From assembly GCA_029834535.1 (NCBI GenBank), contig JAQMWT010000357.1, positions 1 through 64,000 on the forward strand: 64,000 nucleotides of DNA, given 5' to 3'. A program made the translations under genes and the position numbers. Below the pieces are notes generated by a model. That model did no database searches. It was not told where the DNA came from and saw only the letters and a list, made by a program, of their open reading frames with translations. Positions 1-49,051 of the stretch are shown one piece after another; the first letter of the stretch is position 1, and every line of letters starts with the position of its first letter. This DNA comes from Chrysophaeum taylorii. Taxonomy: Eukaryota > Sar > Pelagophyceae > Pelagomonadales > Pelagomonadaceae.

Positions 1-3000
1 GCCGATCGCGCGACGACGAATACGACGGAGGCCGACACCAATATAATTTGAGTTTTTTGAGCGCAACGCTCGCATTTACGACCCCTTGCGGTCAACAGTT
101 ACCATTAGGAGTGACGGTGTACCCGAACACGGACACCCGCACCGACGACGCAGCCGACGCCCTTGCCGCGGCCGCATTCGAAGATCTTGCTCGCCCACCG
201 ATGGACGAGCCACCCAACGACGTGCTGACCAATCGTCGGTCTTTGGCACAGATTTATGAGCAGATGTCGAGCGATGAGCTCGAAGATTCGAGCGAGGAAC
301 TCGAAGCTCCACGATACTGGGAAGGCGATTCAGATTCGGAGGATGAAGAAACTACACTTTGTGAACCAGTGTCCGCGTTAACGTTATTTGACGAGTCGTC
401 CACGGACGACCCACCGTTTATTTTTGATGAGGAAGCCCTCGATGCCATCGCCTTATCTTTGGACCCTCCAGAGACGACCGCTGGCGACCGAACTGGCTGT
501 GAGCCAGACATGAATTTCTGCAGTGCTAGCTCGTGCGTGCATTCGACTGACGAGACGACGACCAGCGCGAGTATTACAGACGACGATTTTACGACAGAGT
601 TGACGTCGGGGACGACGCCATCTTTTCCTGCGGACCCCCCCGAAACGGTTTCGATTACTACGGATCGAGACACGGATACGCCGCCGGAAGAAAAGGATAG
701 ATTTATGAAGAAGATTAGCAGCGTTCTCAAGTGGGACGAAGACGAGCCGACGTGGAACCTGCAGGATTGGTGGACGAAAGCTCGGAATTTCTTGCTAAAG
801 AAGCCACCAGAACAACCGCGCAGCTGCAGACTCAAAGCCGCAGCTGACACGGAACCGATCGCCGATGCTGATGAGGATCAACAGGCGACGAATGAATTCA
901 CAGATGCATTCTGGAACGACGAAATGAATGATTTATGGGAGGGGTTGTTTGCTTCCAAGGATTACGAAGACCAGGATCCCCTACCAGCGTTTATTCCCTC
1001 GGAGATTGTCTTGGAGGAAGAGCGGAAGCCGCCAGATAAAGAGGCTGCCGCGAGCGTTATGGCGAGGACGCCAACAACAGATAATACGAAAGCTCAAGCC
1101 GCGGTATCGATGCCCAACCCCGGAGATGAGCGAATCAGAGCCCGATGTGCTCACACTTCGTTGACGCCGCGAGACGGCAAGACGATCGAAGATGATTTGA
1201 TTACCCTCAGTTGTTTAGATACGGGTACTCTAACGTTTATAGCCTGTCACATCTACAGGAATCGTGACGGACCGAAATTCTCGACGACCATCGGTGTCGA
1301 TGGAATGGCAGATGTTTCTTATATTTGCCGAGAAATGGTCAAAAAGTTGACCAAAGATCAGTTGATTTTCGATGAAGGCGAACTTCCGATTAAGCGCAAG
1401 CTGTATGGATCAGGGTTGAATACGACGACGATCCATCGTTGGATCGCCCTTCGGGTCGCTTTCGCCGACGACTTCGCTGCCCCCATTGTCGCTATTGTAG
1501 CCGATACGAATTATCTGTTCCTGTTGGGAGGGCGCGATATACGAGTTTTAGGGGCCATCGTGGATTTTCCCCATGATCGAATCTGTTTTTGTCGAACCCA
1601 AGTCGTCTACGGGCGCAAGAAGATTAAAGTTAAGGATGAACGAGTCGATGCACCAATCGTGACCTTTCGATCTATTTGCGATCGAAATCCGATAACCGTA
1701 CCGATTTACAATCATCAACACGATGCCCTTCGGCAGAGTCTCGACCTGGTCAAGACTCGAGTTTACGCTCGTTTGAGCACGATTAAAGATCTCCGAAGCC
1801 CGCCGCCGGAACGTAAGGTAGCCTTGGCTACGCGGGGACATGCTACGACCAAATTCTCCCCAGCTCCGGGAGAAGACGCGCGAGAAGTAGTAGCTTATGC
1901 TGCGCGCACGTTTCAAATCGAGCCCGGTAGAACGTACAATCTACCGGTTATTTTGTCGAAACCTATGGAAAGAGGACAGGTTTTCGTCGCTACGTTTGCT
2001 GAGAACGAGCAGTTGGGAGTTGTCGAAGGAATGTGTTCTTCTTGCGAAGAGCGCGACCGGTCCGCTGCTCGGGTGGCGGTTACTGCCACGGAAGAAGTGC
2101 CGACGGTCGTCACTCAAGGCGAGGTTCTCGCGATTGGTGATATCGTTAGGTACGAAGATGAGTTGAACGTCTCTACGATCAACGAACTGACGAAAGAATG
2201 TGAAGAAGGATACGACAAGGGGAGCCTTTCTTTCACCGTTTCTGTCGCTAGTCACTTGACGCGATGCGACGAATCTCCCCCGCCGATGCTGCTGAGCACG
2301 GTGCAGAAGGACGCTACGACCGCTATGACGGACAAGTCCACCCTCAAACGACCTGAAGGCAGCGACGATTTCGCTCGAAGGTCGGAAGAAGATGAAAAGA
2401 AATGCCGCGAGATCACCGAAGCGGAGATCCGCCGCCGATATGAAAAGGTTCAATGGCTTCCAATCACTTATCGCAAGGTGGTGATGCTGTTCAGTGGAGC
2501 CGGAGGCAGTACTTTAGGTCTCCAACGAGCCAACAAAACGTGTGGGACGTCGTTTCGAGTCGTGCTAGCACTCGATGCGTCGGACACCGCCAACCAGATC
2601 CACCACAAGAACTTTCCGAATATTCCTGTGGTGCAGCACACACTGTGTGGTCGCTATGTTACAACCTTACGGTTGATCGAATCTTATTTACCCTACGCGG
2701 AATGGTCGTCGTCGATGTGTGTCGCGTCGCCACCCTGCGTACACTCCGCTCTGTGCAACTTGACCTCCAGAGATGTTGGGAAAGGAGTTACCGCTACCCA
2801 CTGGACGATGAAATTATGCAAGATGGCTGGTTTCTTCATGTGGTTGATAGAGCAGGAGGCTTCGATTATTTCTTACGTTGCACGTTTGCACCCTTACGTG
2901 TACGTCGTCAATTTTTACGACATAACTCCCAGTTTGATGAGCTGTCGCGTGCGATTGTTGGTTTCCAGCCATCCGCTCCATTTGCGCGCAGTTCCAAAGA

Positions 3001-3245
3001 CTTGCAAGAATATGCAGCAAGTTCGCCGCAGCACTTGGCTACGCCGACGAACGACATTTACTTCAGATGAACAATTTAGGATCATCACGAGCCGCGACAG
3101 ACGCAGCTTATACTGTTACGCGTGTCCCGCTTCGCGTAGGACCGCACCGTTCCGATTACAGATCTCTGAATCTGAAATGACTTCGGAGTTGCTGACGATG
3201 CCCCTGATTTTGATTGGGCCGGCTTCTCCAGGACGACCTCGTTGA
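1..3245 (+). CDS. Retrotransposon Gag-protease-cytosine methyltransferase polyprotein, 5' partial
   Basis: The frame is open from the window edge; TTG at 48 is only the first alternative start, so the true start lies upstream. Numbering from 48, residues 1-330 are acidic and low in complexity, like a Gag or linker. Residues about 400-545 resemble a retropepsin: VDGMADVSYI aligns with the usual DTGADVSxI, and LLGGRDIRVLG aligns with the downstream ILGxDfL. The catalytic DTG/DSG is therefore DGM here. Residues about 805-960 are a C5-cytosine methyltransferase: motif I LFSGAGGSTLGL (about 2484-2519), catalytic motif IV ASPPC with the Cys codon at 2736, and a motif VIII-like SCRVRLLVSS. Motif VI (ENV) is not evident, and no clear motif X GN is visible before the stop. 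The MTase could be truncated, or continue in another frame. Confidence 0.8.
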   Translation, partial: RSRDDEYDGGRHQYNLSFLSATLAFTTPCGQQLPLGVTVYPNTDTRTDDAADALAAAAFEDLARPPMDEPPNDVLTNRRSLAQIYEQMSSDELEDSSEELEAPRYWEGDSDSEDEETTLCEPVSALTLFDESSTDDPPFIFDEEALDAIALSLDPPETTAGDRTGCEPDMNFCSASSCVHSTDETTTSASITDDDFTTELTSGTTPSFPADPPETVSITTDRDTDTPPEEKDRFMKKISSVLKWDEDEPTWNLQDWWTKARNFLLKKPPEQPRSCRLKAAADTEPIADADEDQQATNEFTDAFWNDEMNDLWEGLFASKDYEDQDPLPAFIPSEIVLEEERKPPDKEAAASVMARTPTTDNTKAQAAVSMPNPGDERIRARCAHTSLTPRDGKTIEDDLITLSCLDTGTLTFIACHIYRNRDGPKFSTTIGVDGMADVSYICREMVKKLTKDQLIFDEGELPIKRKLYGSGLNTTTIHRWIALRVAFADDFAAPIVAIVADTNYLFLLGGRDIRVLGAIVDFPHDRICFCRTQVVYGRKKIKVKDERVDAPIVTFRSICDRNPITVPIYNHQHDALRQSLDLVKTRVYARLSTIKDLRSPPPERKVALATRGHATTKFSPAPGEDAREVVAYAARTFQIEPGRTYNLPVILSKPMERGQVFVATFAENEQLGVVEGMCSSCEERDRSAARVAVTATEEVPTVVTQGEVLAIGDIVRYEDELNVSTINELTKECEEGYDKGSLSFTVSVASHLTRCDESPPPMLLSTVQKDATTAMTDKSTLKRPEGSDDFARRSEEDEKKCREITEAEIRRRYEKVQWLPITYRKVVMLFSGAGGSTLGLQRANKTCGTSFRVVLALDASDTANQIHHKNFPNIPVVQHTLCGRYVTTLRLIESYLPYAEWSSSMCVASPPCVHSALCNLTSRDVGKGVTATHWTMKLCKMAGFFMWLIEQEASIISYVARLHPYVYVVNFYDITPSLMSCRVRLLVSSHPLHLRAVPKTCKNMQQVRRSTWLRRRTTFTSDEQFRIITSRDRRSLYCYACPASRRTAPFRLQISESEMTSELLTMPLILIGPASPGRPR

Positions 3246-3589
3246 AACACTTGGCGTCCGTCGTGCCACCTGACACGATGGCCTTATTAATGCTCGATCT
3301 GCACAACTCTGTGACCAAGGAATTTCACCTGAGCGGCGAAGCTTTGCCGTCAGCGTTGAGTCCTGCAGACCGACCGTTTGATTATTATTTACAAATTGAT
3401 GAAACCACCCTTCGTCACGTACAAGTTCCGCTGTTAAACACGCGCACACGTGTCGTAAGATGGGTGTCGACTGATGATCTTCAAGATCGCACCAAATGGA
3501 AACCTCCAGAGGTACCGTTGATTCCGCCTGCAACAGATGAGCCGGGGACGTCTCATGCTTCTTCTGCTGCCCCCGACAACCAAATTTAG
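3242..3589 (+). pseudogene. Retrotransposon linker fragment in shifted frame
   Basis: This frame overlaps the end of the methyltransferase ORF by four bases and starts at a TTG, so it is not an independent gene. It encodes about 115 residues with no domain I recognise and ends at TAG 3587-3589. A further open stretch in another frame (about 3589-3710) leads into the RT ORF. The simplest reading is that this is polyprotein sequence between MTase and RT, broken by indels. A programmed frameshift at the GTTGA junction (3241-3245) is the alternative. No typical slippery heptamer was noticed. Confidence 0.5.
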
Positions 3590-3716
3590 ACGTTCCGCCA
3601 GATCCTGAGCGAGATCGGGAACCGAAGATTAAGAGCGAGCCGAGTGTTCGTGTCAAAGGCGAGAGGATCAACAAAAGCCACCCGGAAGTGAAACTAAAAT
3701 ACGAGAAAAGTTCGAT

Positions 3717-5441
3717 GTGCCATGGAAAGATGCGCCGCGCGATGCCGAGGGTGCACCACTGCCGCAGACTCCTGAGCATGTCAAGGACAACGAAGCAATG
3801 AAAGTTAAAATTCCTACGAAGGAAGAAGTTGACAAGGTTGTGCAGGAGCTGGGAATTCCTGACAATCCGCACTTAGATGACGAGGCGAAACTGATGCTCC
3901 GTCACTGTGTGCAATATTCTTGGGCCTTTTTCGACCCGATTATGAGACCTGTGGACTCGCCTCCTGTGTCTCTACGATTCAAAGACGCGAATCCGCGACC
4001 GATTAAGATGACGCCCTACCGATTGACGCCTGCGAAGCTCGATTGTCTCCGCAAGCAGATCAGCGAGTGGTGCCGGGATGGAGTCATTCGTCCGGCCAAC
4101 TCACCTTGGGGCTTTCCTGTGTTGATGCTTCCGAAGAAAGGAGCTGAGATTGGAACGTCAAACGCGTTCCGTGCTGCAGTTGACTTACGTCAGCTCAACG
4201 ATCAATTGGTCAATGACAGTTGGCCAAACATTCGACAAGATGATGCTTTAGCCTTTCTCGCGATGAGACGATGGCGGACATGCATTGATATTAGATGGGG
4301 ATACCACAACCTTCGTCTGGATCCGGCAGCGCAGGACGCTGTCACGATGGTTAGCCCACTTGGCGCTCATAGTTTCTTGCGATTACCTCTAGGTGTGAAG
4401 ACGGCCGGAGCTCTTTTCTGCAAGCAAATGGCGAGCGACCTTTCGAAATGGATGTATCAAGACTTGGTTGCGTTTGTTGACGATATTATGATGGGATCCG
4501 ACGATCTTCATCGACATTTACAAGTTTTGATCGAAGTGATGTGTCATTTGGCACAGAGAGGGTACAGCGGTCGAACCGCGAAGTTCCACCTTCTCAAGGA
4601 TGATATAGAATTTCTGGGACACATTTCTACCCCAGAAGGCTTGAAGCCGAATCCGAAGACGCTGGAAGCACTGCAGAAGATGCCGATTCCAGGTACTTTA
4701 CCGAATACTTCCCCGAAGACCCAGATACGCTCTTTCATCGGCATGAGTAATTACTGCCGGCGATATGTGAAGGGCTACTCGAAGATTGTGGAACCGTTGA
4801 GACGATTATGCCTCGAAGGTGTAAAGTTCGAGTGGACGCCCGAGTGTCAGAAAGCTTGGGATACGATTATTGAAGCTTTGGTTGATTCCCGTGGAGTCTA
4901 CCACGCCGATTATGATCTGCCTTTTCAGATCCGATCCGATGCTTCCAAGGATGGACTTGGAGCATATCTCTTCCAGATTGTCGAAGTCAAGGACGATGCC
5001 GGAAGAGTGACTCGAGAAGAACGAGTAATTGAATACTGGAGCCGAGCTGTGCCGAAGGAGATGCGGAATTATGAGCCCCGTCGGCTAGAGCTGCTGGCAG
5101 TTATACTTTCTCTAGAGCACTTTCGAGCCTACATCGAAGGGCACCGGACTGTTTTGGAGACCGATCACCGAAATTTGACGTTTTTACGTAAGGCGACGCA
5201 CTCGTCTGGGCAGCTTGCTCGTTGGGCGATGCGCCTCGCCAATTTTGACCCTGAACTTGGTTACAAGCCGGGAAAGTCACCGGGAATGAGTATCCCTGAC
5301 TGTCTCTCCCGCAACCCGATAGATCATGTCATCGAGACTGACGAGTTTGGAGAACCTTTGAACCACGCGTATTTAGTGTTCCAAGAGCTTCCCGACCTGT
5401 TGATGACCGAGGAGTTCCCGTCTCCGGCTGCCACTTCATAA
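3717..5441 (+). CDS. Retrotransposon reverse transcriptase-RNase H
   Basis: The protein copies element RNA into DNA and removes the RNA strand. RT motifs are visible in order: AVDLRQLN (about residue 155), LPLGVKTAGALFCKQM, and the catalytic FVDD box (Asp codons at 4479 and 4482), followed by the thumb motif IEFLGHIS. RNase H follows with Asp in IRSDASKDGLG, Glu in RRLELLAVI, Asp in ETDHRNLTFL and a final Asp in PDCLSR. The frame is open upstream of the listed GTG (from about 3700), so 3717 is only a nominal start. The stop TAA (5439-5441) overlaps the ATG of the integrase ORF as TAATG. All four RNase H acidic residues and both RT aspartates are intact. Confidence 0.92.
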   Translation: MPWKDAPRDAEGAPLPQTPEHVKDNEAMKVKIPTKEEVDKVVQELGIPDNPHLDDEAKLMLRHCVQYSWAFFDPIMRPVDSPPVSLRFKDANPRPIKMTPYRLTPAKLDCLRKQISEWCRDGVIRPANSPWGFPVLMLPKKGAEIGTSNAFRAAVDLRQLNDQLVNDSWPNIRQDDALAFLAMRRWRTCIDIRWGYHNLRLDPAAQDAVTMVSPLGAHSFLRLPLGVKTAGALFCKQMASDLSKWMYQDLVAFVDDIMMGSDDLHRHLQVLIEVMCHLAQRGYSGRTAKFHLLKDDIEFLGHISTPEGLKPNPKTLEALQKMPIPGTLPNTSPKTQIRSFIGMSNYCRRYVKGYSKIVEPLRRLCLEGVKFEWTPECQKAWDTIIEALVDSRGVYHADYDLPFQIRSDASKDGLGAYLFQIVEVKDDAGRVTREERVIEYWSRAVPKEMRNYEPRRLELLAVILSLEHFRAYIEGHRTVLETDHRNLTFLRKATHSSGQLARWAMRLANFDPELGYKPGKSPGMSIPDCLSRNPIDHVIETDEFGEPLNHAYLVFQELPDLLMTEEFPSPAATS

Positions 5442-6118
5442 TGTCGTTTATTACGACCGAACTGCCGGAAGACGAAGACGAAGACCCTGAAAAGGATCCG
5501 ATGAAATTGGCTACGTCTCACGCTACGAGACAACGTCGGAAGAACCGTGCGCGTGATGAGCCACAGATCTTCAAGGACGCAGCCGCTTACAAAGATTATA
5601 TCGATAAGATACCCGATAATATGACGCTCGCTGAGATCGCACGTGAGCAAGAATCTGATGCTACTTGCGAGGATATTCGCTACCGAATGGCCCAAGGTCA
5701 GACGCCGCGACGTTCCCGAGCGAACGAACGATTCGAAGTCGTTAAAGATGTTCTTTACCGCATTTCTGCTGATTCGCACCCGATGATTGTTGCACCTGCT
5801 ACGTTGCGCAAGCGCATTATTCGACTCTACCATGACACTCCGGTTAACGGTGGTCATATGGGACGTCACAGTACCGTCCAGGCTATCCAAGAACGATTTT
5901 GGTGGCCTCACATGTCGAACGAAGTTGGAGTCTTCATTGCTGAATGCTTAGTTTGCCAGAAAGCTCGTACGCCTGAGCCGAAACGAGCTGGACTCTTGCA
6001 GCAGCCCGTCTACGACGGTGATGGTGCTGTTCTTTGCATGGATTTATTTGGACCCTTGCCCAGCGCTGGTCCCGAGACGTATCTTCTAGTATTTTTGATC
6101 CGTTCTCGCATTTCTTGA
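5441..6118 (+). CDS. Retrotransposon integrase, N-terminal part (HHCC zinc finger and first catalytic Asp)
   Basis: The ATG overlaps the RT/RNase H stop codon. The HHCC zinc-binding module is seen as the two His in YHDTPVNGGHMG and the CLVC pair in AECLVCQKA, with the hallmark RFWWPHM between. The first catalytic Asp of the integrase core lies in LCMDLFGP. The frame then ends at TGA 6116-6118. Core homology continues in another frame from about 6100, so this is one integrase split by a frame change at a run of five T (about 6091-6095). Confidence 0.85.
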   Translation: MSFITTELPEDEDEDPEKDPMKLATSHATRQRRKNRARDEPQIFKDAAAYKDYIDKIPDNMTLAEIAREQESDATCEDIRYRMAQGQTPRRSRANERFEVVKDVLYRISADSHPMIVAPATLRKRIIRLYHDTPVNGGHMGRHSTVQAIQERFWWPHMSNEVGVFIAECLVCQKARTPEPKRAGLLQQPVYDGDGAVLCMDLFGPLPSAGPETYLLVFLIRSRIS

Positions 6119-7332
6119 TTCTGGATGTTTTGAACGATAAGACCGCTGAGTCTGTCCTCGAGTCTTTTGTCATTAACATTCTCCTCAAGGGCTACTTGCC
6201 CCAGATGATTCGTACCGACAACGGTAAAGAGTTCGTGAACAAGTTGATGCGCGAGTTTTGCCATCTCTTTAACACACGATACCAAACTACGATTCCTTAT
6301 CATGCCCAGTCGAACCCGGCTGAGCGTGTCAACCGATTTATCAAGGCCTTCCTCCGTGCTTGCCTTCAAGGCCGGAACATCACGGATTGGCCTGACTTTG
6401 CTCATTATATTGCGTTTTGCTACAACCGCAAGTTTATTCCAGGCACGCAGATTTCTCCCTTTATGCTGCGCCTGAACCGTCAGCCGATGCTGCCGACTGA
6501 CTACACGCTCATGGATTTTGATACACGATTATTGCCGAAGACTCGCTCTGATGCAGTCGCCGAGACTCGCGAACGATTGAAATATTATACAAAGATCGTC
6601 CGCGAGGCTCGTGATAAAGCTTTGAAGAAACAGCGATTGGCTTACAATGCTGATCATGTTGATGTTGAATACAAGGAAGGATCGCACGTTTTGCTCTACA
6701 TTCCTTTCCTTCAGAACAAACTTCGACCGGAATGGCGAGGGCCGTTTATTATCAAGGAACGCCTCTCCCCGGTCACCTATAGGATTGAGTCTCTCGACTC
6801 TCCGCCCGAAGAACGACGTGTTCATGTAAGTCAGATCACGCCTGTGATGGTACCTCCGATCGTTGATCAAACCATCCGCAAACCCGAAGAAACCTTCCGT
6901 GATGATTATCAGCACGGTAAGTTTGTTGTTTTCCGGATTCCTGACCGGAAGCGCTCTGATTGGCGCAAGAAGATTTATGTTGCCGAAGTTTACGAGCCTT
7001 ACGATTACCAAAATGATCGTGTTGCTCTACATTTCTATTCCGATTTGGGTCCGAACGATGATGTCGCTTATTTCAAGCCGACCTCTCACCTTTCGCACCG
7101 CAAGCTCAAGCCCGAATTCAAGGACGTTGAAGGTCGAAGTTTCACCGACAAGTCCCGAATTTCCTCCAACACAACTCCTTGTGTCACGGATTTCGCTCCA
7201 CACGAAACTGATGTGTTGATACCCAAGTTTACTTTACGCAGTGGTCGAGTTCCTGAACCGATCATCACCCGCGTTTACCAGAAGATTCGTTCACGAGATG
7301 CTCGTAAGGCGAAGCCGCGCTCCTCGCGCTAG
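6034..7332 (+). CDS. Retrotransposon integrase, catalytic core and C-terminal domain
   Basis: Homology in this frame begins at about 6097 with DPFSHFLILDVLNDK; the listed start at 6034 is only where the frame opens. The second catalytic Asp is in IRTDNGKEFVN and the Glu in SNPAERVNRFIK, giving with the upstream segment a full DDE triad. A C-terminal GPY/F-like module (KLRPEWRGPFIIKE followed by VTYRIE) and a VHVSQ motif match Ty3/Gypsy integrases. About 150 further residues follow; I recognise no chromodomain. The stop is TAG at 7330-7332. Confidence 0.88.
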   Translation: MHGFIWTLAQRWSRDVSSSIFDPFSHFLILDVLNDKTAESVLESFVINILLKGYLPQMIRTDNGKEFVNKLMREFCHLFNTRYQTTIPYHAQSNPAERVNRFIKAFLRACLQGRNITDWPDFAHYIAFCYNRKFIPGTQISPFMLRLNRQPMLPTDYTLMDFDTRLLPKTRSDAVAETRERLKYYTKIVREARDKALKKQRLAYNADHVDVEYKEGSHVLLYIPFLQNKLRPEWRGPFIIKERLSPVTYRIESLDSPPEERRVHVSQITPVMVPPIVDQTIRKPEETFRDDYQHGKFVVFRIPDRKRSDWRKKIYVAEVYEPYDYQNDRVALHFYSDLGPNDDVAYFKPTSHLSHRKLKPEFKDVEGRSFTDKSRISSNTTPCVTDFAPHETDVLIPKFTLRSGRVPEPIITRVYQKIRSRDARKAKPRSSR

Positions 7333-8000
7333 CACCTCGCTGGGGCAGCTCGAATTCTTACCAGGGGAGTCCTGTGGCGGCAACTCCCGCCTCCTAAGGC
7401 TTACCCCTCTTCTAGGGCCCCCCTTATCAGGGGCACCCTACTCCGTTCCGATGATGTCAGTGTTCTCTATGACATCATCTTCCTTTTCCGTGACATGCGT
7501 CACCCTGATTTCCGATTTTCGATATATCCTTGATCATAAAGCAACAGCCGATCCTCAAGTTGAGAGGACCAGGCGCAGGAGTTGTTTGTGGTCGCGTGGC
7601 GGGAGAACGGCCATCCTCGTCCAGTGATCCCTCCAAAGGCACGGACGCGATCGGCGAGCCAGGATTCGAAGGCACGCCAGGTAGCCCCTAAAATTCTCCT
7701 TACGCCACACGTGGGATTAGGGTCACTGGGCGACGAGACAGAGGGGGGGGGGGGGTGAAGACGAGTTGGTTTTGTCGTCCCGAAGAGGGAAATTCGAGAT
7801 AGGGTTAAGTCTTGCCATCTGGCAGAACCCCCAATGATTTATTTTGCTGCCCCAATTCCCATTCTCCATTCCCGCATCATTCCGTTAACGGGCTCGAGTG
7901 GTGAGCACTGTTCTTGGCGAAGTCTTTTAAGTTGTCGCGGACTTCTGCGAACGCGCCATACGCTGCGAGGGTGCCACGGTTTGAGTGAGCGCCGTTGCAG
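7333..8000 (+). other. Retrotransposon 3' non-coding region, possible 3' LTR, and leader of next gene
   Basis: No gene is seen here. The segment holds a perfect 10-bp inverted repeat, GATGATGTCA and TGACATCATC, with a 10-base loop (7450-7479). It also holds a purine/G run at about 7735-7755 that may be the polypurine tract. The last bases TTGCAG just before the ATG at 8001 could be a 3' splice site of an unseen leader intron. Confidence 0.4.
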
Positions 8001-41501: not shown

Positions 41502-42053
41502 CTAAAGCTCCCCGCACTGCGAAATGAGGACGGGGAGCTTGGGTTTGCTGTCTGCCTCTGTCGGGACGTGCTCGATTTTGTGGACCACCATCATCGACGT
41601 CGCGTCGAGGACTTTGCCAAAGACGACGTGCTTGCCGTCGAGCCACCGCGTCTCGGCGAGGGTGATAAAAAACTGGGAGCCGTTCGAGTCGGGCCCCGAG
41701 TTGGCCATCGACAGGAAGCCCGGCCCCGAGTGTCGCAGCGTGAAGTTTTCGTCTTCAAAGGATTCGCCGTAAATCGAAATGCATCCCGTGCCGTCGCCCT
41801 TGATGATATCCCCCCCCTGGATCATGAACTCCTTGATCACCCGGTGAAACGGCGTTTTCAGATAGCCCGCGGGTTGCGAACCTCGCGTGAACTCGCCCGT
41901 GCACATCTGCCGGAAATTCTCCGCCGTCTTGGGTGCCACGTCGGCGAAGAGTTCGAACCGGATGCGACCGGAGGGGACACCACCGATCGTGATGTCGAAA
42001 AACACGACGGGGTTCCCCCGCGCAATCGCCTCGGTCACAACGCTATCCTGCAT
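41502..42053 (-). CDS. PPIH: Cyclophilin-type peptidyl-prolyl isomerase, cyclophilin H-like
   Basis: The product is 183 aa, a single cyclophilin domain. It shows [12 protein letters not shown], the catalytic Arg in [31 protein letters not shown] and the cyclosporin-contact Trp in [13 protein letters not shown]. The N-terminal extension and overall wording are closest to cyclophilin H, a U4/U6 snRNP component, but a cytosolic cyclophilin A role cannot be excluded. No signal peptide is present. Confidence 0.93.
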
Positions 42054-42068
42054 ATGTACCGGTTATTA

Positions 42069-44990
42069 ATACAGCGTTGGGAATTCACTTCTGCAAGTGA
42101 ACGCGAACCACTTCACCAGCCACGCAATATTGGTGAAGTGATTTGAAGTGAACACGTCACCCTACGTGGCCATCGTGAACCTTTGTGAAGTGAACGCCAC
42201 TTCTTTTTTTTTTTTTTAACACCAGCCCCGATCCCTGCCGTGCCCCTTCTTTTCCGCCCCCCCCGCGCGCTATTGCCTAGGTCTGGTGCTCTTAGATTCA
42301 TTCGCGTTTCGGGACGAAGGAGGAGTTACCGTGGATGGGGTTCAGTGTTTCCTACTTTAGGCGATGTGAACGACCTCGGTATCCTCGTCTGGTTCTTCCT
42401 CATCAACCTCCATCACCAAAGAGCCTCGGGGATGGTGCTCTCGGCGTTTTTGAAAAACTCGGTCTCGTGTCCGAGGTCGCTGTACTTAATCCGGGCCGCC
42501 GCAATGAAATTCTTCTTCATGCGCAGTAGGGCAACTTTGTCCGTCTCGTCCGCGCCGAGCATCGTGTTTCCCTCGGTCAGGACAAGTCTTCCAATGCCCA
42601 GGCAGCGCTCACAGTAGCTCTGCGCGCCATGTGTACCAATTGAACCCCTGGAGGCTCTCGCCATGTCCGGAAGGAACCCGTACTGCTACTTGGTGAGCGG
42701 CCGATACAGCTTTCCAACGTCGAGCACAGCCAGATCTGTGAAGCCGACTTCATCCTTCTTCTCAAGTTCAGGATAATGCTCTTTCCAGTTGAGCGATCTC
42801 GAGAGCCTGATCCATTGAGTGAAGCCCTGTTCAAACTCCACATTGAAATCGGGCATCTGGTTCTCAGGCATAGCAAAAGAAGGCACGTCGCGACTAATGT
42901 CGTCGTCCCAAGCGTTGGGTGCGCCGAGTGCCGCCAAGAGGCTGCGGACGGGCGCAGGTTCGGAGGGCGGCGCAGACTCGGACGAAGTCTTTGCGTTTTC
43001 GTGGTGGAATGCAGTCCGTGCGTAAATCATATTTAATTCCTTGAGCAACTTCTTGGCCCGAGCTTTCTGATTGGACGACAGGTGCCTGCAGCAGTTGATA
43101 GTCCGAAAGTCAAGAAGGAAGGCAATCAACACGCGATCGTTGAATTCGTAGTTGAAGTGACGCACGTAGTTTTCATTATTCCCACAACACTGACGCTCAC
43201 ATTCGAGTGTAGCCCGCTCAAGACAGGTTTTTGCCGGTCTCGCTGAGATCGTCAACATCGAGACAGTCTTACGTGGCATGGATTTCGCAGTTATGTTTGG
43301 GAGATCAATGAATTCTAGCGTCCCAGCTCGCAGAGACTCGATCATGTTGTGCCTGATCAATGCGGCACACGCCCCCAGGTGTAAGTGTTCATGTTGCACG
43401 AAAACAACGGGGTCATCCGTTATAGCAAAAATCGCCTCGAATTTAGCCAACGCCACCCATTGCTCATCACTGATTGTCCAGGGGAGTCCAATGTTGGTAG
43501 CCGTGTACAGTTAAAGCACGTGGTGCATACGCAGCAAGGAACGAACAAGTTGCTATCGCGCCCGGAACCTCGTCTTATTGAGGTCGAGCTTGAGCTTCGG
43601 CGATTTATTTCCCCGGCTATCATAGCAAAAGCGCATGCAGATCCTTCAAACGTGTGCCGTAAGAAAAGCACTTGGCTCCATCGTGGGCACTGTTCAGCAG
43701 CTCCTGGCGAGCTGGGAATAGATTGATCACCTGCTTGCGTCTGGATCGTGTCAAGTCGCCACATGCCGCAGCCGAGATTTTTGAGATATCATGCATGTCA
43801 CACACGCTTCGACCTCAACAAAATTTCTTCGGCGACGCCGATTGCAGCCCGGTCTTGAACAATGGTTGCGGCCGCCAAATCGATATCGATTCTCGGGAGC
43901 TTCGCGACCACAGAACGGAGCAGAGAAGCCGTGCCGGAATCGGTTTCGTCGTCAGCTGGAACAAGGCCCACGCACACCGTCTCAACGCCACTCCAATCGG
44001 GCCAGATGAAGGATAGGCCAATGACCTGTCGCTTGAACTTATCCTTGAGTGTCCCGCCGTCGTGCAGCACCTGGGCGAATGGATTGCCGAAAGCCGCCGC
44101 TTCATAACACTCCGTAACGACGTGCTTCAAGATTCGAACAACAAAACAACGATATTCAGCGTCCACCCATTCAAACGGCGCCTTTCGAGTCATGAACGGG
44201 CACTTGCCTTTCCCGCCACCACCGCGGTAATACGCCTCAATTAGGTTGCGATGATTGTCGTCGTCAACTGTGCGCTTGGAAAAAATCCGCTGCGACGTGT
44301 ACACGTAGTGCCGAGCCGAGAACGCCATCTGGGAAGAGTGCTTTCCCTGGCTGGGCATGGCCATGAAGTATCTCGCAATATCCGATTTACCCTTCGAGGC
44401 TGCCACAACGCCCACGGCCGTCATAACGCCCTCCTTTTCTTGGCTGTCTTCTGTTTCTTGGTGAGCTGTTGACGCCCCAGCTCGTCGAATCCTCCTCCGG
44501 ATGCGCAGCCTTGAAGTGGGCCCCAAGAGGGCTTGGTCGTCTGCCTCGTGCCTTTCTTGAAGTCTCTCGTCACCTTCAGGCGCTCCCAGCACCGGATACA
44601 CACGTGCGTCGCCTTCCCACTGACGCGGCCAGGATGATTTTCCTTCAGTCGACGCACGCAGTCCCACATCTTGGAAAAACCTGGTTGATCGTCCACTTTT
44701 GCCGGGTGTGCTCCACGTCACAACATCGACGTCGCAATCGGCTCGTTCTTGTGAACTTCCTCCTTCTGTTCCGCGTTTAAATTCTTCCTCATCATCAACT
44801 TTATCCTCCACCTCCAGGTAGCGCGGCTCGACTTCGCTCATCAGACTTGGCCGTCGTCAGCCAAAGTGAATGAACGTGAAGTGAACATTGGACTTCGGAC
44901 GAAAATTTTCGGTGAAGTGAATTGAATTGAAGTGAACAAAATTCAGTGAACCTAGTGTGGAGTGACCCCATTGAATTAATTCCAAACGCT
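42069..44990 (-). mobile_element. Decayed hAT-family DNA transposon
   Basis: The ends carry inverted repeats: AGCGTTGGGAATT from 42073 and its near-complement AATTCCAAACGCT ending at 44990. Both junctions show the 8-bp direct repeat GGTTATTA (42061-42068 and 44991-44998), the target-duplication size of hAT elements; the exact ends are uncertain by a few bases. Subterminal GTGAAGTGAAC-like repeats crowd both ends (42080-42200, 44865-44960). The interior is transposase on the minus strand, broken over several frames: BED finger near 44690-44450, middle parts at 44450-43798 and 43456-42686, and a hAT dimerisation domain near 42620-42500. Confidence 0.82.
42413..44841 (-). pseudogene. hAT transposase, frameshifted
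   Basis: Pieces in different frames line up as one transposase. MSEVEPRYLEVEDK (from 44841) is a possible start. A BED zinc finger lies in a second frame (MWDCVRRLKENHP, then HVCIRCWERLK, 44680-44540). The main frame resumes as KGKSDIARYFMAM down to TGA/TAG near 43798. A further 256-codon frame covers 43456-42686. The hAT dimerisation motif CERCLGIGRLVLTEGNTMLG (about 42610-42550) closes it. Several frame changes are needed; I saw no convincing introns, so it is probably dead. Confidence 0.75.
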
Positions 44991-45497
44991 GGTTATTATT
45001 AGGGATCCGTCAAGTTTGGTCAAAAAGTTTGGTGAATTTCTTTCATGTTTGCTCGATTTTGATGTATGATTAAGGAAAAACTCACATGTGTGGTCACTTT
45101 CCATAGAAGTTAGGTCAGTTAAGTTTGGTCACTTCGAAGTTGCATTAAGTTTGATCAATCAACCTTTCAAGTTTGATTAATTTCCTTGTAAGTTTGGTCA
45201 ACAAGTTTGATCACTACTCCTCAAACTTCCACAGTATTGACCAAACTTCGGCTTTTTAAATCAAACTTAAGGAGGCTTTTTAAGGGGGCGCGTGAGCGCT
45301 TTTGGTGCGAACATGCTTTAAAAACGAGAGCTAGGTGCTGCAGCTACGCAGAATCTACCGTGGCGTTACACGCGCGGCATGGACACCCCCCCATGACCGC
45401 CTTAGAAGGAGGTCCGTCCTAAGACAGCACGGCGATACGCAAGGAGAGCGGGCAGCGACACGCGGCCCCGAGAGCAGATTCCCACGGCTTGGCGTAC

Positions 45498-45886
45498 TTA
45501 AGCTGGGCCCATTCTCATACCTTCCATCGTTCGTAGAAGCCACCCAAACCGCGACTCACCACGGTGGTGTTGCCGTGGTTGTGCGTCATTCTTCAACAAC
45601 AAGCGGACATAGGACACCAGACTTACACGGTCTGCGTGAGACGGATCACCCCATTCTGCATCCCAAAACTCGAGAGGGAGCGCGTCTTTGATAATCGACT
45701 CGGGGTTGAGAACGCGAAACTCGACGACCTCGAGAAACTGCGCGAGCAACGCCCCTCGAGCACCCAAAGATTGTAGTCCCACACTTGTGCGGGACCGTAC
45801 AGGACCACGTTCAGGAGTTCCTCACCGTCGCGTACCCGACCCGGAGTTAGCTGTCCAGCTTGATCATGGGACGGCAACGCGAGCAC
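45498..45886 (-). pseudogene. Unrecognised broken reading frames inside the AT-rich-ended element
   Basis: Two overlapping minus-strand frames look protein-like (ELLNVVLYGPAQVWDYNLW, then VLNPESIIKDALPLEFWDAE) but are joined by a frame change near 45720. The LPLEFW stretch faintly recalls Copia integrases; that is too weak to name. Confidence 0.3.
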
Positions 45887-46443
45887 GTGCCGTTACGCCA
45901 GCATAAACAACTCGCACGACCGTAAGAGAACACCTCCTTATCCTCCTCCTCCTCGCGCATCTCGACAACCCCGCCCTGCCGCAAGATCTCCCCGGAGCTG
46001 CTGCTGCACCGTCGAGCACTGTACGAGAAAGTCGGCAAATACAAGCTGCGGCGCGAAGGGATGTCAAGACGTCGACAGCCTCGTTCCGGAAGATCGCCGA
46101 CACCACCCCTGTAATTCTAACCCTGTCATCCAGTACGAGTCTAAAATATGACAAGTTTGATGTGATTGTTCGAAATTTGATCACACCAAATTGAATGCCT
46201 CCAAGTTTGACCATACACACGCATCAACATGCGAACACTCGCAGAACAACATATACAAACAAGGCCTGCGCAAGACAACGCTGATACCACGCTGTTTCGT
46301 CGCCCAAGATTATTCGGATGCGCCTTATTAGTTCGATGTTTATGACAGACTACAGCGAACGATCCCGGTTCGTCATCTCGTGCCTTTAGCGGATGACATT
46401 GTTGCAGATGTCTATCAAACGCATATGCCGAGAAGAGCCGCCT

Positions 46444-46735
46444 GACTGACTAACTAACTAACTTCAGACCTCTCCCGAGCATGGGAGCCAGGCCGGACCG
46501 GCAGGAGCCGGTACGGAATCACGGAGGAAAATCACGCAGTTGGGGCAGAGGCGAGGGACGAGGACGGACTTGTTGATGGCGGACCGCCACTGCGCCGTCT
46601 TGTGCGAGGTCGTGCAAAAGCGTCGCAGGCCGCGGACGTGTTGGTCCACGAACAATCGACCTGTCCGTCGCGCTCTGCCCAACCGAGCGAACCCCATCCC
46701 AACACGGACTTTCCGGGTGCTAACCGGCCAGCGAG
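46444..46735 (-). mobile_element. 5'-truncated LINE fragment, second copy
   Basis: About 290 bp are nearly identical to 25740-26020 in the same orientation. It too ends in a TTAG run on the minus strand (about 46444-46463), and breaks off abruptly near 46735, as 5'-truncated LINE insertions do. Confidence 0.7.
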
Positions 46736-47917
46736 CCGCCTGACTTGCCCTCCATAGAGCCCTTGATGAGGACCGACACGGCCTCGCAGAAGTGCTTCGC
46801 GCGATAGCTGGATCTTTGTCGGCAAGAAGGTTCGGAGCAGGTGTGCCTTTTAGCACACGCGACGGTATTTTCTACTTGCACATCACAACGAGCAGCACGC
46901 ACATAAACGCTGCATCTTGCATATAGCACTTGAACGACAGCGCTGTCGCGCTGTAGACCATGTTGTACACGCCGTCAACTTGCCGCCCGTGTGGAACATC
47001 ATCTGCTGCAAGTCGGCCTCGAGAACACACCTGCTGAACTTGGCATCTTGGTCAGATCGAGTAAAGTGGAGCCTCGTATTTGCGCGCTCTGAGCTGCGAC
47101 AGCGTACTCGGCGATCTCTCGTAGTCGTTTACCTTCGTCTGGGCACGCGACTTCTTGTTTTCTTTCTCGGCGTCGTGGTCAACCGACGTCGGCGTGTTAC
47201 CACCACGCTCCCGCTCGACCTGAGCGAAGCCCGCATCGATACCGTGTTCGTTTCGAAGTCGAAGGACGATCCGGAGTCACAGCGCGACGTGCAGAACCGC
47301 TGAAAGCTTGATCACGGCGGGCCTTGTTTTGTCATCGAACCGTATGTTTGCTCTCTGAGAGTACAAGTTTAGTCAACCAAGAGACGGATTGACCAAACTT
47401 AAGTGACCAAACTTGTTGAAGGTTTACGGTGACCAAACTTATATGGTGGTTGGAAACTTGACTTTTCCCTTATTATTATACAAGAAGGCACGAATTTCTG
47501 GAACGGGTGCAACGGAACTTGAGTTGCCTTCTGTCGGGTCTTTCTTTACCTCACCAGCACGATGGCTTCGGGTCTGGTAAATTAGTATCTCATTCGTCAT
47601 CACAGTTCTTCTTGTGTTGCAGATATTACCTCGACGACGATGGCATTTAAGGATGCGCCGCGTGGGAGTCGCGAATCCCTGAAAAAAGCACACGCGGCAG
47701 GTGCGGACCATCCCACCTGTTGGCGATAGATAGATATTGTTTCGGACTGTGCCCCAGTCGGTGGTGCAGCAACAACATCCTGCAGGTGCCGCAAGGGACC
47801 AGCCTAGCCTGGAGGCCGTCGAGTCGTCGTCGCAGCGGATAGGCCACGGGCATAAACGAACAGCGTTGTTGGTGTTTGTCCTCCTCCTCTGATCATCGTA
47901 CGGGGGGGATGACTCAG
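46736..47917. other. Region with no supported gene
   Basis: It covers the right part of the AT-rich-ended element and about 450 bp before the sugar transporter. Frames of up to 176 codons exist but show no recognisable protein. An upstream exon of the transporter should lie in its right part but could not be placed. Confidence 0.4.
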
Positions 47918-49051
47918 GCCTCTCGAGAAGAAGCTGGAGCCCGCGCCGCGGTCGAAGAACGTACGTCAAAAGGTTGCGCGCCGTGATCCTCCTGTTCGCA
48001 GGCTGGCGTCTCGACGACGACCAAGACGCTGCTGCTGCTGGCGCTCGTGTTCCAGAACGCGACGCTCAACATCGCGGCTCGACGGTCGCGCGTCGCCGCC
48101 GCCGAAGAAGAAGAAAGATCCGGTTGTGGCCTCCGAAACACGACGGTCGTCGTCACGATCGAATCTGTTAAGATCTTGATGGCGTTCCTGCTGTTCGCGC
48201 TCGAGCGCAAGCACGAGCACGGTGTGTTTGGAGGATAATCCACGACTTTTTGAAAACCTCCAGGCCTGAGCGTATTCGGGACGATACGCGCCGTCGCGCG
48301 GATCACGAGCCAACACCGTTTCGAGAGCGCGAAGATTCTCGTGCCGGCGTGCCTGTACGTGTGCCAGAACAACCTCCTGCTCGTCGCGGCCGACAACCTC
48401 GAGGGACCGGTTCTCGCGCTCTTCGGCCAGATAAAGATCCTGGCGACCGCGCTATTCAGCGTCGTGCTCCTCCGACGTACCCTCGGGTGCCGTCGCTGGG
48501 TCTCCCTCTTCGTTTTGACGGGCTCGATCGCGACCGTCCAGCTCTCTCAGATGCGGCAGACGTCTGGCGACGAGGGCTCGAAGAATCTCGTCCTCGGACT
48601 CTGCGTTACCGCCATCATCTCCACCATCTCTGGATTCTCGGGCGTCTACTTTGAGCTCGTCCTCAAGGCCTCCCCTATCTCTGTCTGGGTTCGGAACATT
48701 CACCTCGCGACGATCTCGACGTTGATCGCGCTCGCCGCTGTCTACTCCAACGACCTCGCCGCCGTCAAAGAGTGCGGCTTCTTCGCGGGCTACAACAACG
48801 TCGTCGCCGCCTACGTCGCCGTCCAAGCGGGGGGCGGCCTCCTCATCGCCGCGGTCATCAAGTACGCCGACAACATCCTAAAAGCCTTTGCGACCTCCGT
48901 CGCCATCATCGTCGTCTCCGCGGTCTCTGCCCTTTTCTACTCGTTCCATCTCACTCGACTCTTCTTCGTTGGCACCTTCGGCGTCATCTACGCCGTCTTC
49001 CTCTATGGCGACCTACTCAAGGATCTCCCGCTCTGCAGGCGACTCCCGTGA
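47918..49051 (+). CDS. Nucleotide-sugar transporter, SLC35A-like, first exon not located
   Basis: Supported exons are 47918-47960, 48002-48221 and 48264-49051, with introns of 41 nt (47961-48001, GTACGT to TTCGCAG) and 42 nt (48222-48263). Splicing gives KLEPAPRSKN-AGVSTTTKTLLLLA and then FALERKHEH-GLSVFGTIRA in frame. CMP-sialate/UDP-galactose transporter motifs follow: VCQNNLLLVAADNLEGPV, QIKILATALFSV, GFSGVYFELVLK and YADNILKAFATSVAII. About ten hydrophobic segments are present. No ATG fits the first exon's frame; the ATG at 47909 is in another frame, so an upstream exon is needed. A GTGAGT overlaps the stop and a TGTGCAG lies at about 49109, so an alternative C-terminus is possible. Confidence 0.82.

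Follow-up and report, generated by a model that had tools for sequence, protein, structure and literature searches.

The left end of contig C357 of the pelagophyte Chrysophaeum taylorii raises the question of whether a long terminal repeat (LTR) retrotransposon carries a cytosine methyltransferase of its own and, if so, what such an enzyme might do for it. The window analyzed here comprises bases 1 to 64,000 of this contig (assembly of 70.8 Mb in 697 contigs). Three quarters of a Ty3/Gypsy LTR retrotransposon, its 3′ portion, occupy the first 7,709 bases, and in this element a C5-cytosine methyltransferase (MTase) domain lies between the protease (PR) region and the reverse transcriptase (RT). 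An element of this kind had been proposed in a first-pass annotation made from the bases alone, and the domain order, motifs, profile comparisons, and fold prediction bear it out.

A C5 methyltransferase domain in a Ty3/Gypsy element

The MTase of the window copy lies on the plus strand at approximately 2463 to 3300. Profile, motif, and fold evidence places motifs I to VIII at 2463 to 3023, and these contain the features that define C5 MTases, namely, the S-adenosylmethionine-binding motif I LFSGAGG (2487 to 2507), motif IV ASPPC with the catalytic Cys (2724 to 2738), motif VI WLIEQ with its Glu (2841 to 2855), and motif VIII SCRVR with its RxR (2940 to 2954); the first two are those that the annotation had pointed out. 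A short target recognition part and motif X follow at 3024 to 3300, with motif X (KHLASVVPP, 3245 to 3271) aligned with GNMVPP and CNMVPP of the relatives P0012 and P0004, respectively. The gag/PR part and the MTase motifs share a stop-free frame at 3 to 3245 (1,080 codons, open at the contig end), which had been described as running unbroken from gag-protease into the MTase. This holds through motifs I to VIII and fails beyond them: compared with the sister copies, the MTase frame breaks off near 3024, which puts the final ~70 codons of this open reading frame (ORF) out of frame, and the C-terminal MTase part sits in the frame of the ORF at 3176 to 3589. The window copy has about five frame changes, of which this one cuts the MTase, and some of them could be sequencing errors.

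In a search with the DNA_methylase profile (PF00145; cutoff of 22 bits), which the annotation had recommended, the window copy (17.8 bits) and the genomic copy L033 (18.9 bits) fall below the cutoff, and copies L025 (23.6 bits) and L032 (26.1 bits) exceed it. L032 also matches PHROG DNA MTase families, with E values of 7.5e−8 and 2e−7. When the MTase clade was aligned with six canonical C5 MTases by hhalign, the local probability was 95.7 (E value, 9.8e−9; global E value, 2.1e−13), with PPC aligned on PCQ and EQ on ENV. An AlphaFold model built from five sequences (pLDDT, 73.1; pTM, 0.72) retrieved C5 MTases as 46 of its 50 best Foldseek matches in the PDB. DNMT1, DNMT2, DNMT3, and HhaI were all close, and DNMT1, -2, and -3 were not separable by fold; a tree of six MTase rows had long branches. 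DNMT2, DNMT5, and DNMT6 are absent from the 50 VIA-align rows, from which no conclusion was drawn, and a model from a single sequence (pLDDT, 29.8) was useless and was set aside. On the profile, motif, and fold evidence, the idea that the segment is not an MTase is ruled out, and the domain is classified here as a predicted C5-cytosine MTase with complete motifs I to X, of an “orphan” (unplaced) class.

The position of the window copy at a contig end and its frame changes might suggest an artifact, such as a host gene fragment beside the element or a misassembly. This explanation is refuted by the other copies. The MTase segment occurs at at least 150 genomic places (the best 150 of 861 candidates), which are 83 to 100% identical; by eye count, 137 of these 150 scored matches have no internal stop, which places the observation beyond chance, and 22 lie in frames of at least 1,500 codons. 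The spacing between MTase and RT is constant: among 86 RT matches scored out of 1,385 candidates, 51 have an MTase match 1.18 to 1.56 kb upstream. Moreover, L025 encodes all domains in one frame, and homologs of the MTase exist in other organisms. The annotation had also raised the matter of copies lacking the MTase, and no clean protease-RT junction without it was found at 7 of the 35 unpaired RT places, which were inspected as 801-base pieces. Three of the seven contain a whole MTase core in more than one frame, two a partial core beside an inverted or missing piece, and one the last part only, and one is occupied by another copy.

Structure of the element and its copies

L025 (with L026, on contig C5) is 10,280 bp long, has LTRs of 341 and 340 bp that are 98.2% identical, and encodes gag, the protease region, MTase, RT, RNase H, and integrase (IN) in a single frame of 3,063 codons. 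L027 is a shortened copy with LTRs of 337 and 336 bp that are 99.7% identical. Both are recent copies, as their LTR identities show. In both, the LTRs are direct repeats with TG…CA ends, TGG stands two bases past the 5′ LTR, where a tRNA primer binding site would be expected, and direct repeats of at least 50 bp beyond the one LTR pair were not found; the DIRS-like repeat arrangement of KnitGypsy-Dnmt3, an element discussed below, is absent. As for target site duplications in these two copies, one of 5 bp (GCACA) flanks L027 and none is readable in L025. Nested or inverted Gypsy family pieces were seen at MTase junctions at L045, L047, and L048 and on contig C591 near L050, where two Gypsy copies are in opposite orientation.

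Over 7.7 kb, the window copy shares 98.7% identity with L025; since the contig begins at window base 1, ~2.57 kb of its 5′ part is missing. All of its features are on the plus strand. The truncated gag/protease region (1 to 2462, in the ORF at 3 to 3245) contains the protease-like motifs TTIGVDGMADVSYI (1284 to 1325) and GGRDIRVLGAIVDF (1527 to 1568), found by eye; the protease is named from these motifs, with no Pfam match. Over aligned stretches, the gag/PR DNA is 95.6 to 98.7% identical to that of six copies of subfamily 1, whereas identity to subfamily 2 at the protein level is far lower (29 to 68%). The ORF at 3633 to 5441 encodes RT (4131 to 4625) and RNase H (4833 to 5246), a region spanning 4131 to 5246 with matches to PF00078 (E value, 9e−13), PF17919 (1.8e−22), and PF17917 (4.2e−26). 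The ORFs at 5342 to 6118 and 6022 to 7332 encode the integrase (5795 to 6831), in which Pfam recognizes an H2C2 zinc-binding domain (5795 to 5971), the rve core (6091 to 6303), and a C-terminal p58-like domain (6739 to 6831). The order PR-RT-RNase H-IN, the Gypsy-type RT and RNase H, and the H2C2 and rve integrase are those of Ty3/Gypsy elements. A purine-rich stretch, cAGGGGAGt (7361 to 7372, by eye), is the probable polypurine tract and lies directly 5′ of the 3′ LTR (7373 to 7709; 337 bp, TGTGGC…CCACA), which can be aligned with the 5′ LTR of L025 (96.2%) and that of L027 (97.1%).

Past the integrase, a conserved stretch at 6903 to 7140 (GKFVVFRIPDR…HFYSD) is, by eye, common to the relatives P0004, P0005, and P0006, and this unnamed domain perhaps serves in targeting. 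Elsewhere in the window, a block at 42000 to 48000 has a low GC content (0.53 to 0.54 versus 0.63 over 8 to 64 kb) and contains two long minus-strand frames (42686 to 43510 and 43798 to 44856) without Pfam matches; it is possibly another mobile element.

Inheritance of the domain and a Ty1/Copia counterpart

Relatives of the element were found only by an RT-IN search among 5.8 billion proteins. Searches of the same proteins with the MTase alone gave 514 candidates for the Gypsy MTase and 7,676 for a Ty1/Copia MTase described below, none with an E value of ≤0.01; viral contigs gave no match, and phages gave none to P0002. A tree built from 49 RT-RNase H rows placed 12 rows around the element in one clade (support, 100/99), within which several joins are unresolved. 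The MTase is present in 7 of the 12 clade rows; in the remaining five, the deposited protein offers no more than 202 residues upstream of RT, too few to judge. The family hidden Markov model (HMM) found no match in the 37 rows outside the clade, 20 of which have fewer than 400 residues before RT. Four of the carriers, P0005, P0006, and P0012 (metagenome or genome archive) and P0008 (MMETSP), have a homologous MTase at the same place. The closest named relative, P0004, is a transcript of the pelagophyte (ochrophyte) Chrysocystis (MMETSP1165) and has the C-terminal part of the MTase only. The MTases of these relatives are 20 to 29% identical to the Gypsy MTase family. The grouping of the carriers, including a pelagophyte transcript, in one RT clade indicates that the domain is old and inherited.

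Two metagenomic Gypsy polyproteins have other arrangements. P0048, on a long branch, has an N-terminal canonical DNA methyltransferase (DNMT; PF00145; 108.6 bits with the canonical HMM), and in P0042 a stretch resembling a DNMT (13.3 bits, below the Pfam cutoff), which one source labels a DNA-cytosine methylase, follows RNase H and precedes IN. Both fall outside the clade and thus look like separate captures.

The genome search with PF00145 gave 57 matches (15 examined; 123 of 474 candidates scored), none of which overlaps the 150 scored Gypsy MTase places. The two best are host genes. The first (L001, 1498 to 2577) is a DNMT2 gene (1g55; E value, 3.9e−39), and a chlorophyll-binding protein gene (52.3 bits) adjoins it, from which it follows that the host is photosynthetic. 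The second (L002, 1423 to 2694) is a DNMT5 gene that matches 7r76 (deposited as “Rad8”), which we take to be Cryptococcus Dnmt5, with an E value of 2.4e−132. No further host-type DNMT was found among the 15 places examined.

The next best matches are Ty1/Copia elements as judged from 13 of the 55 remaining places. They include the family L035 to L044 (contigs C4, C120, C64, C582, C328, C96, C314, C523, C4, and C315, respectively), which has an RVT_2 domain (E value, 1.6e−38), a C5 MTase with PCQ and ENV (PF00145; 32.1 bits) between protease and integrase, frames of up to 1,952 codons, and, in L044, LTR-like repeats of ~200 bp that are 96% identical. The Copia MTase aligns with canonical C5 MTases over motifs I to VIII (hhalign probability, 92.6; E value, 4.7e−7), and its motifs I to VIII are under purifying selection (ratio of nonsynonymous to synonymous substitution rates [dN/dS], 0.103 to 0.214 in six pairs; 0.096 to 0.337 for the part that follows, in six pairs, one with stops). 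The two families are alike in being LTR elements with a C5 MTase under purifying selection between protease and the next enzyme. In contrast to the Gypsy element, the Copia family has IN before RT and a PCQ- and ENV-containing MTase that is not recognizably related; no relation between the two MTases is detectable by hhalign (probabilities, 0.4 and 0.1). By sequence comparison, the Copia MTase represents a second, unrelated capture in the same genome.

DNMT-bearing retrotransposons, one Gypsy element among them, are already known, and the precedents that the annotation mentioned in dinoflagellates and charophytes can be named as Symbiodinium and Klebsormidium nitens (PMC5890265). KnitGypsy-Dnmt3 of K. 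nitens carries a Dnmt3 and has repeats arranged as in DIRS elements (PMC5890265). It resembles the present element in its Gypsy-type domains, in the location of the DNMT in the frame of the Pol polyprotein, and in the purifying selection on the DNMT. By its published description it differs in several respects, since the MTase described here is of an unplaced class, has EQ in motif VI, and is located after the protease and before RT, in an element whose LTRs are simple direct repeats. The capture described here is likely separate from that of the Klebsormidium element. SymbioDIRS-Dnmt3 and SymbioLINE-Dnmt of Symbiodinium are likewise high-copy-number retroelements with conserved DNMTs, those of SymbioLINE also being “orphan” (PMC5890265), but they are DIRS and LINE rather than LTR/Gypsy elements and reside in dinoflagellate hosts. 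A 2025 paper (PMC12344493) mentions DNMT3 in “LTR Copia” elements and cites PMC5890265, which says Gypsy for Klebsormidium; Copia as a DNMT carrier may therefore not be new in print. No paper on a DNMT-bearing Gypsy element in stramenopiles was found in the open PMC set. New as far as searched are the unplaced-class DNMT between protease and RT of a simple-LTR Gypsy element, the age of this DNMT as a marker of its clade, the link to pelagophytes, and the parallel, unrelated capture that a Copia family of this genome has made.

Selection, substrate, and possible role

Selection on the parts of the Gypsy element was estimated between two subfamilies (L025-like and L032-like) with our own Nei-Gojobori script, using in-frame copies or stretches only. 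The MTase core has a dN/dS of 0.052 to 0.073 (18 pairs; dS, 1.39 to 1.92), which reflects strong purifying selection, and the values are 0.027 for RT (three pairs), 0.081 to 0.084 for the N-terminal IN part (two pairs), 0.108 to 0.160 for gag-PR (eight pairs), and 0.185 to 0.250 for the C-terminal part of the MTase (six pairs). The catalytic MTase core is therefore the most constrained part measured after RT.

These values bear on the possibility that the domain lacks catalysis and is kept as a nucleic acid-binding or structural part of the polyprotein. In the Gypsy family, EQ and AS stand in place of the canonical ENV of motif VI and GN(A/S)V of motif X, where the relative P0012 has ENV and GN; P0008 has lost the GG of motif I, and the Pfam scores are low. 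However, alignment A4 has 16 invariant columns of 205, among them G30, D56, C110, E148, R180, and R182, so that the catalytic Cys of motif IV, the Glu of motif VI, and the RxR are unchanged among relatives only 20 to 29% identical. The catalytic part is also more constrained than the C-terminal part, and loss of catalysis is considered improbable.

For a domain with this fold class, inheritance, and constraint, we infer activity, a DNA substrate, and a time of action: the MTase would methylate the element's own cDNA, a proposal whose chances we judge to be about even. The enzyme would be released from the polyprotein, or carried in the virus-like particle alongside RT and integrase, and would methylate cytosines of the cDNA around reverse transcription or integration. 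New copies would thereby arrive premarked, and the host DNMT5 might then copy the mark. The gain to the element may be escape from a response to foreign DNA or a state of little harm that is passed on quietly. In yeast, the DNMTs of SymbioDIRS carry out de novo methylation of CG, and cDNA methylation has been proposed for SymbioDIRS; SymbioLINE and KnitGypsy DNMTs had no activity in yeast, which was termed inconclusive (PMC5890265). DNMT5 maintains methylation in Cryptococcus, a fungus without de novo activity (PMC10538959), and a host with DNMT5 could therefore perpetuate marks seeded by an element.

The composition of the Gypsy copies weighs against methylation of the element's own DNA. A measure that compared CpG transitions with those at all other sites (ratio, 2.2 to 3.2) was dropped because it is confounded by base composition. 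In a matched control, C/T differences at CpG were fewer than at CpT, although more than at CpA and CpC, and the observed/expected (O/E) CpG ratio of subfamily 1 (1.26 to 1.31) lies within that of host blocks (1.25 to 1.47), with lower values in subfamily 2 (1.12) and the window LTR (0.90). The Gypsy copies thus have no clear signature of CpG deamination; these data would be compatible with methylation in a non-CpG context, with action on RNA, or with a low level of deamination. In Copia copies (5 of 10 loci), the corresponding differences were 0.0783 at CpG, 0.0700 at CpT, 0.0536 at CpC, and 0.0521 at CpA, and the CpG O/E (1.02 to 1.04 in four loci versus 1.36 for host DNA in the window) suggests slight depletion.

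The lack of a clear deamination signature would be expected if the MTase acts on RNA, for instance, on the genomic RNA of the element or the tRNA primer in the particle, and alters stability, sensing, or priming. De Mendoza et al. suggested RNA methylation for SymbioLINE (PMC5890265). By sequence, the only C5 MTases of the PDB that match the Gypsy MTase are DNMT2, a tRNA MTase (motifs I to III; E values, 0.08 to 1.4), besides GGA1 chains that are noise and with no match to Dnmt3; likewise, of the two host enzymes, the DNMT2-like L001 is the better BLASTP match (E value, 8e−4). This similarity is weak and concerns mostly the S-adenosylmethionine-binding part, however, and by fold DNMT1, DNMT2, DNMT3, and HhaI are all near. 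DNMT2 has a CFT-type motif, which was not seen in the Gypsy MTase. An RNA substrate is accordingly held to be doubtful, if the most credible of the alternatives to methylation of the element's cDNA.

A benefit to the cell rather than to the element has been proposed in general terms by Morozov et al. (PMC6338049), with the MTase as a weapon or shield of the host, e.g., against DNA viruses, and the presence of a C5 MTase in a second element family of the same genome is in keeping with it. Nevertheless, selection within the element suffices to explain the data, the MTases examined are in mobile, high-copy-number elements, and a domesticated copy was not seen, though no search was aimed at one; such a role appears very unlikely. 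A broader extension of methylation of the element's cDNA starts from the host enzymes found so far, DNMT2 and DNMT5 only. The Gypsy and Copia MTases would supply de novo methylation by seeding their own cDNA and DNMT5 would perpetuate it, so that the methylome would be laid down by parasites; we consider this speculative, with little chance of being correct.

Compared with the 2018 report (PMC5890265) and its two lineages, the capture of DNMTs by retrotransposons now looks to have happened longer ago and more often, given a Gypsy clade that inherits its MTase across distant relatives, an unrelated capture by Copia, and the arrangements of P0042 and P0048. Should DNA be the substrate of these enzymes, the mark usually thought to silence a parasite would be written by the parasite itself, and in a host in which DNMT5 is the only such enzyme found so far, this would bear directly on the source of de novo methylation.

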